Positions 1,960 to 3,126 of a stretch of DNA of 53,883 nucleotides are shown piece by piece (positions within the stretch are counted from its first letter, which is position 1; every line of letters begins with the position of its first letter). This DNA comes from Fidelibacterota bacterium. GTDB taxonomy: Bacteria; Fidelibacterota; UBA8477. The stretch lies in the NCBI GenBank assembly GCA_021734045.1, contig JAIPJR010000004.1:1-53883 (forward strand). Reading direction: 5' to 3'. A model generated the notes under the pieces. It searched no databases. It was not told the DNA's origin and saw only the letters and a program-made list of their open reading frames with translations. A program made the position numbers and the translations under genes.

Positions 1960-3126
1960 ATGAAAACAGGAAAAAAGAGACACACTTTTACGATAATCGT
2001 ATTTCTGCTTGCATTTTTTTACTGGGGTTGTGGTCAGGCCGGTGCTGATTCAGAAAATCAGCAGGTGGATAACAATCCCTCACCCGGGGAATTCACAGTC
2101 GTTTTTGCCACCGGAAACCACGGTGAAACCGACCCCTGCGGGTGAAAGCACAATCCAACTGGCGGTCTGGCCAGGAAGACAACGATTATCAATCAGTACG
2201 CTCAGGGAGCCACTACATTTTTCATTGATGCCGGTGACGCGCTGTTTCGGGCGATTCGGGTGGCCGAACCTGATAAACCCCGGTTAGCGGCCATGGCTGA
2301 GGGTATCATCAAAATTTACAATGAGATGGGGTGCCGTGTCATGAATGTGGGCGCCAACGATCTGGCCCTGGGTGCCGGATTTATCAACCACATTAAGGAT
2401 TTGGCGGAATTCCCCCTCATCTCAGCCAACATTTTGGTGAAAGCGACGCAACAACACGCCTTTGAGCCATATATAATTTTAAACACCGGAGACCAGCGCA
2501 TTGGTGTGATTGGCGTCAGCATGGACACACCTCAGGTGTCCGAACAGTTTGAATTCGGCGATCCGGTGGTCCATACCCAGGCGATTGTGGATGCCATTAC
2601 TGCGGACACCGATGTGATCATTGTCCTGGCCAGTCTGGATGATCGCAAGACGCAACAATTGGCCGACCAGGTGCAGGGTGCTGACTTTGTGGTTTCCTCG
2701 CGGTCGCTGCGGGTGAGCAGTCAGCTCAAAACGAAGGGTAGTACGACGGTGATTCAAAATGGCACCCGGGGGAAATATGCCGGTGTTTTGCATGTAAAAC
2801 GCGCTGACAATCTTGGTACCATACGAAATCTTACACCTGAGTATAGTCAACTTCGTTTTACCCGGGAACGACTGGACGCTCTAAGCAAACCGGTTCCCGC
2901 AGGCATGACCCTGATTGAATATTATGCTGGTGATGGGGCAAAAACCCAACTGGTCCAGCGTCTGGAAGCACAGAAAAACCAGCGCGAAAAAATTATTCAT
3001 GAAACCGCCAATTATTTCTGGTTCCTGCCTGTGGCCTTGTCTGAAGAGGTCCTGGATAATCCAGAAATCCTTATGCAGGTGGAAGCGCTGAAACGCCAGG
3101 TGGAGACCGCTGCTTCCAGCCGGTGA
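1960..3126 (+). CDS. UshA-like lipoprotein, probable selenoprotein (in-frame TGA at 2143-2145 read as Sec)
   Basis: Read through the TGA at 2143-2145, one frame runs unbroken from the ATG at 1960 to the stop at 3126 and gives 388 residues. The segment before TGA ends in GNHGETDPCG and the segment after starts KHNPTGGLARK. Together they match the metal-site region of UshA/5'-nucleotidase-like metallophosphatases, in which many homologues have Cys-Gly-Cys; here the second Cys is Sec62 (C60-G61-U62). A hairpin with a GGUCU apical loop follows the TGA at the spacing of a bacterial SECIS. The N-terminus is a lipoprotein signal with Cys24 (FFYWGC). Residues 87-93 (FFIDAGD) and 131-134 (GAND) match later metal-site motifs in part. 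The usual Asp of DxHG is Gly and no GHxH is seen, so the phosphatase site looks altered. If Sec is not inserted, only a 61-residue fragment is made. The substrate is unknown. Confidence 0.78.
2159..2174 (+). promoter_or_regulatory. predicted bacterial SECIS hairpin
   Basis: A perfect 5-bp stem (CTGGC 2159-2163 with GCCAG 2170-2174) encloses the six-base loop GGTCTG. It begins 13 bases after the TGA at 2143-2145. In E. coli fdhF, the SelB-bound upper SECIS stem-loop starts about 11 bases after UGA and its loop contains GGUCU. Position, size and loop sequence therefore all fit a SelB-dependent recoding element. The element also codes for the conserved TGGLAR residues, which constrains it further. 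The structure was assigned by eye. Confidence 0.7.

Follow-up and report, generated by a model that had tools for sequence, protein, structure and literature searches.

A short UshA-like PCGU protein of Fidelibacterota with a probable Cys-Gly-Sec centre and a mostly lost metal site

The reading frame at 1960-3126 of the window (the whole stretch of DNA that was analysed, 53,883 nucleotides) encodes an UshA-like protein in which the UGA at 2143 is almost certainly decoded as selenocysteine (Sec), as judged from sequence comparison, by SelB and tRNA-Sec with the aid of a hairpin at 2159-2174. The product is exported, probably held by a membrane anchor, and it is probably not a nucleotidase. The gene neighbourhood of its relatives suggests a redox or sulfur role via Cys60 and Sec62, together with a rhodanese and a MauE/DoxX protein, and we consider this role slightly favoured. 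The whole account, which joins Sec decoding, an exported non-nucleotidase protein and the redox/sulfur role, is moderately likely and not more, because its level is set by the last of these. The host is a bacterium of marine type. Its assembly (G000), of 2.54 Mb and 92% completeness, falls in the phylum Fidelibacterota, formerly Marinimicrobia, and its closest named relative is the MAG CG1_02_48_14.

The TGA at codon 62 is in frame with the ATG at 1960 and the stop TGA at 3124-3126, and is embedded in the motif ETDPCG-TGA-KHNPTGGLARK. The first-pass annotation had proposed that one frame is joined by this single TGA without a frameshift. This was borne out, since the match to the NCBIfam model NF041198 crosses the TGA. 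Gene calling that is blind to Sec harms the annotation: the list of open reading frames shows only a 288-aa fragment at 2260-3126, which lacks both the signal peptide and the motif. The features of the gene are collected in Table 1.

Table 1. Features of the UshA-like gene in the window
Feature	Position	Strand	Remarks
UshA-like (PCGU) selenoprotein CDS	1960..3126	+	388 aa, Sec at residue 62; one open frame once TGA is decoded as Sec
Signal peptide, probably lipoprotein type, Cys24	1960..2031	+	Hydrophobic stretch ending FYWGC; non-strict lipobox
PCGU motif Pro59-Cys60-Gly61-Sec62	2134..2145	+	Cys60 in 51/51, Sec62 in 44/51, else Cys
Selenocysteine codon TGA, almost certain	2143..2145	+	TGA kept in 44 homologues; tRNA-Sec, selA, selB, selD in genome
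Bacterial SECIS-type hairpin	2159..2174	+	Stem 2159-2163/2170-2174, loop GGUCUG 2164-2169; fold, recoding test, compensatory pairs
DAGD motif, residues 90-93	2227..2238	+	Asp93 in 43/51; sole commonly kept metal-ligand position of the nucleotidase fold

We compared 51 extracted homologues, all from Fidelibacterota. Codon 62 is TGA in 44 of them and a Cys codon (TGC or TGT) in the other seven, never Trp, so that the column holds Sec or Cys and no unrelated residue. Cys60, Gly68, Gly69 and Arg72 are invariant. The nearest relative (L019) is 59% identical in the mature part and has the same TGA within the same motif. The occurrence of TGA at exactly this codon in 44 of 51 genes excludes chance, sequencing error and a private nonsense mutation. 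Changes between Sec and Cys are needed five times along the tree. Two paralogues, one with Sec and one with Cys, occur in a single genome (G187; L053 and L052), and in members (L055-L057) from a small-genome family without selA (f14) a diverged DCGC motif replaces PCGU. A search with the single protein across genome contigs returned just one relative, and no relative of the PCGU protein was found in the viral contigs searched.

Across the phylum, the NF041198 profile matches at E ≤ 1e-10 in 232 of 245 genomes, where the weaker matches may be ordinary relatives; the best matches listed mostly contain one TGA. selA is present in 123 of the 133 genomes whose best match listed has a TGA and absent from six of the eight whose best match listed has a sense codon, the position of the TGA being verified for the extracted genes only. 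Most of the 10 TGA-form genomes without a selA match are incomplete bins, several of them 55-77% complete, and we read the absence, tentatively, as missing sequence. The host genome itself contains the whole machinery. Its tRNA-Sec scores 67 bits, above the Rfam cut-off, and is called tRNA-SeC(tca) by ARAGORN; selB and selA, both above cut-off, adjoin on contig C31; and selD, also above cut-off (G000:C24:15775-16698, L016), itself bears an in-frame TGA.

The hairpin lies just downstream of the TGA and has a G in its apical loop, as expected for bacterial selenoprotein genes. It can form in all 44 TGA genes: the stem starts 12-14 nt 3' of the TGA, and five or all of its six pairs form in one or other of two registers. 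Folded as a single sequence, the window's hairpin is unexceptional against dinucleotide shuffles (z -0.38). This test was uninformative and was replaced by synonymous recoding, and the case for the hairpin thus rests on comparison across genes. The local hairpin energy of the TGA genes averages -8.78 kcal/mol versus -3.47 kcal/mol for synonymous recodings (mean z -2.57; p<0.05 in 39 of 44; p 0.027 for the window's own hairpin), whereas no hairpin signal is seen in the Cys genes taken together (z -0.08). Furthermore, the sixth codon after the TGA is GGC in 44/44 TGA genes and the seventh is GGT in 43/44, while the Cys genes use mixed Gly codons at these places, where any Gly codon would serve. 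Codons 5 and 9 co-vary at their third bases, CTA occurring with TCT and CTG with TCC, which are compensatory and synonymous changes. One Cys gene (L024) retains the hairpin and falls within a Sec clade, and marks a recent change from Sec to Cys.

The best match of the protein is NF041198, UshA-like (seleno)protein (UshA_like_PCGU; E 5.9e-61, 206.6 bits), so a family of the name given in the first-pass annotation does exist. The match spans residues 40-385 and profile positions 19-382 of 519; the remaining positions 383-519 (~137) are unmatched, and the curated cut-off of 275 bits is not reached. This cut-off is reached in just one of 245 genomes of the phylum, which indicates that the phylum carries a shorter version. 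The protein shares the PCGU motif and a significant match with NF041198 but is shorter and below cut-off; it is very probably a short variant of the UshA-like PCGU group and not a full equivalog. The second family of this name, NF049981, gives a weak match at residues 46-137 (31 bits versus a cut-off of 140) and has a CxxU motif, in contrast to CxU here. A Pfam search with the protein was negative even with the threshold set at E 1.

The selenoprotein had been taken for a new one, and the family and literature matches correct this. A COG0737/UshA-like CxU selenoprotein with 76 sequences was listed in the 2008 GOS study, which kept it apart from families with known Cys redox motifs (PMC2398784), and it was listed again in 2022 and 2026 (PMC9312934, PMC13188914). 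Where these three papers treat it, they give its name, motif and counts and assign no function. This marine-metagenome protein and the window protein have the COG0737 relation, the CxU motif and the occurrence of Sec and Cys forms in common, whereas those entries mention neither operon partners nor the loss of metal ligands, both found here. Thus, the kind of selenoprotein is already known, and the operon partners and metal-ligand loss are what the present analysis adds. It had also been supposed that Cys at the position of the stop is common to UshA-like metallophosphatases; it characterises the PCGU/PCGC family and not UshA metallophosphatases generally. The lipoprotein assignment was upheld in part. 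Cys24 ends a hydrophobic stretch and its column is Cys in 35 of 51 homologues, but the preceding residues, FYWG, are no strict lipobox and the column is a gap in 13 of 51.

In the alignment and the predicted model, the N-terminal fold of the 5'-nucleotidases and SoxB is kept and the dinuclear metal centre is not. The AlphaFold model, made from a two-sequence alignment, has a mean pLDDT of 57 and about 40 at the PCGU motif. Its core matches CD73, UshA and SoxB with Z about 23-24 over about 245 residues; beyond residue 240, where a nucleotidase would have its C-terminal substrate-binding domain, pLDDT is under 50 and the model barely aligns. UshA and CD73 (1ush, 4h2i), which match with Z about 24 over about 245 residues, share this N-terminal fold but are about 520 aa long versus 388 aa here, and the CxU motif sets the window protein apart from them. 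We mapped the metal-ligand positions by alignment to 2z1a and tested eight of them, which we take to be the dinuclear metal ligands and catalytic His of UshA. The numbers of the 51 homologues that keep them are 1 for D41, 16 for H43, 43 for D84, 1 for N116, 5 for H117, 6 for H217, 7 for H252 and 0 for H254, and no homologue retains more than four of the eight. The window protein retains just the equivalents of H43 and D84; D41 is replaced by G52, N116 by A132, H117 by N133, H217 by S225, H252 by R248 and H254 by L250. Since the metal ligands and catalytic His are mostly lost, nucleotidase activity is unlikely, and a role distinct from nucleotidases, as had been suggested, is likely. Outside the UshA-like selenoprotein family, the best-scoring named relative is the thiosulfohydrolase SoxB (TIGR04486; E 1.9e-18), which is related in sequence and fold and shares a sulfur context, but the window protein scores 66 bits versus a cut-off of 550 and the metal ligands are missing.

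Across much of the phylum, the PCGU gene stands with a rhodanese gene (PF00581) and a MauE/DoxX gene (PF07291), in two orders. Both match lists included 121 genomes, and in 79 of these the MauE gene lies at most 624 bp from the selenoprotein gene; in the loci that were read the rhodanese gene lies between or beside the two. The rhodanese is nearest to NF041203, rhodanese-related (seleno)protein, and scores below its cut-off. In the window, the PCGU gene is not beside these genes; its own genome has a rhodanese and MauE pair of reading frames overlapping by 4 bases on contig C90 (L071 920-1941), unlinked to the selenoprotein gene. The partnership is therefore proposed here by analogy with the relatives. 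A membrane-associated oxidoreductase complex of Mycobacterium has a DoxX protein and the rhodanese-type SseA as partners. Among the papers searched, none connected UshA to rhodanese and DoxX, and none connected MauE to rhodanese and selenoproteins. A different neighbour, at 682-1875 on the minus strand of the window, has LIM domains (PF00412) fused to a DA1-like domain (PF12315), which gives this bacterial protein a eukaryote-like architecture, and a homologue occupies the equivalent place beside the nearest relative (L019).

We propose that the Cys60-Gly-Sec62 pair is the most likely reactive centre. The pair would cycle between the selenol/thiol and selenenylsulfide states and contribute to thiol or sulfane-sulfur transfer in the periplasm, the rhodanese may serve as sulfur carrier, and the MauE/DoxX membrane protein may provide the link to a membrane electron chain. 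The same sequences might be explained by a nonsense mutation, by an error in the assembly or by decoding of TGA as a different amino acid, for example Trp. This is extremely improbable, since the TGA is kept in 44 genes and replaced by Cys, never Trp, in the other seven, and a conserved hairpin accompanies the full Sec machinery.

The other alternatives accept the Sec codon and differ on the chemistry. The protein could be a working metal hydrolase of the UshA/SoxB superfamily, for example a SoxB-like thiosulfohydrolase, with Cys60 and Sec62 as metal ligands or nucleophile. The standing of SoxB as best named outside relative and its place among the fold matches, the retention of Asp93 and the sulfur-type neighbours in relatives all fit such an enzyme, but six of the tested equivalents (D41, N116, H117, H217, H252 and H254) are gone in nearly all members and at most half of the eight are kept in any sequence, which makes it unlikely. 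More doubtful still is binding or trafficking of a metal or metalloid, in which CxU would hold a soft metal without redox catalysis. A CxC or CxU pair suits soft metals and the predicted exported location agrees with this, but the recurrent identified neighbours include rhodanese and MauE/DoxX and none is a metal-resistance gene.

In summary, the family picture is that of a metallophosphatase fold without its metal site and with an invariant Cys-x-Sec(Cys) pair, whose gene is accompanied by rhodanese and MauE/DoxX genes in most genomes of the phylum. A testable function is thereby proposed for a family that has been listed since 2008 without one. More tentatively, and with less confidence than in the redox/sulfur role itself, the phylum-wide PCGU protein may be a pseudo-phosphatase turned redox selenoenzyme, in which the old pocket would bind a sulfur or selenium compound that the CxU pair, the periplasmic rhodanese and MauE/DoxX oxidise or reduce. 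If true, Fidelibacterota (Marinimicrobia) would have a hitherto undescribed sulfur pathway that operates in the periplasm and depends on Sec.
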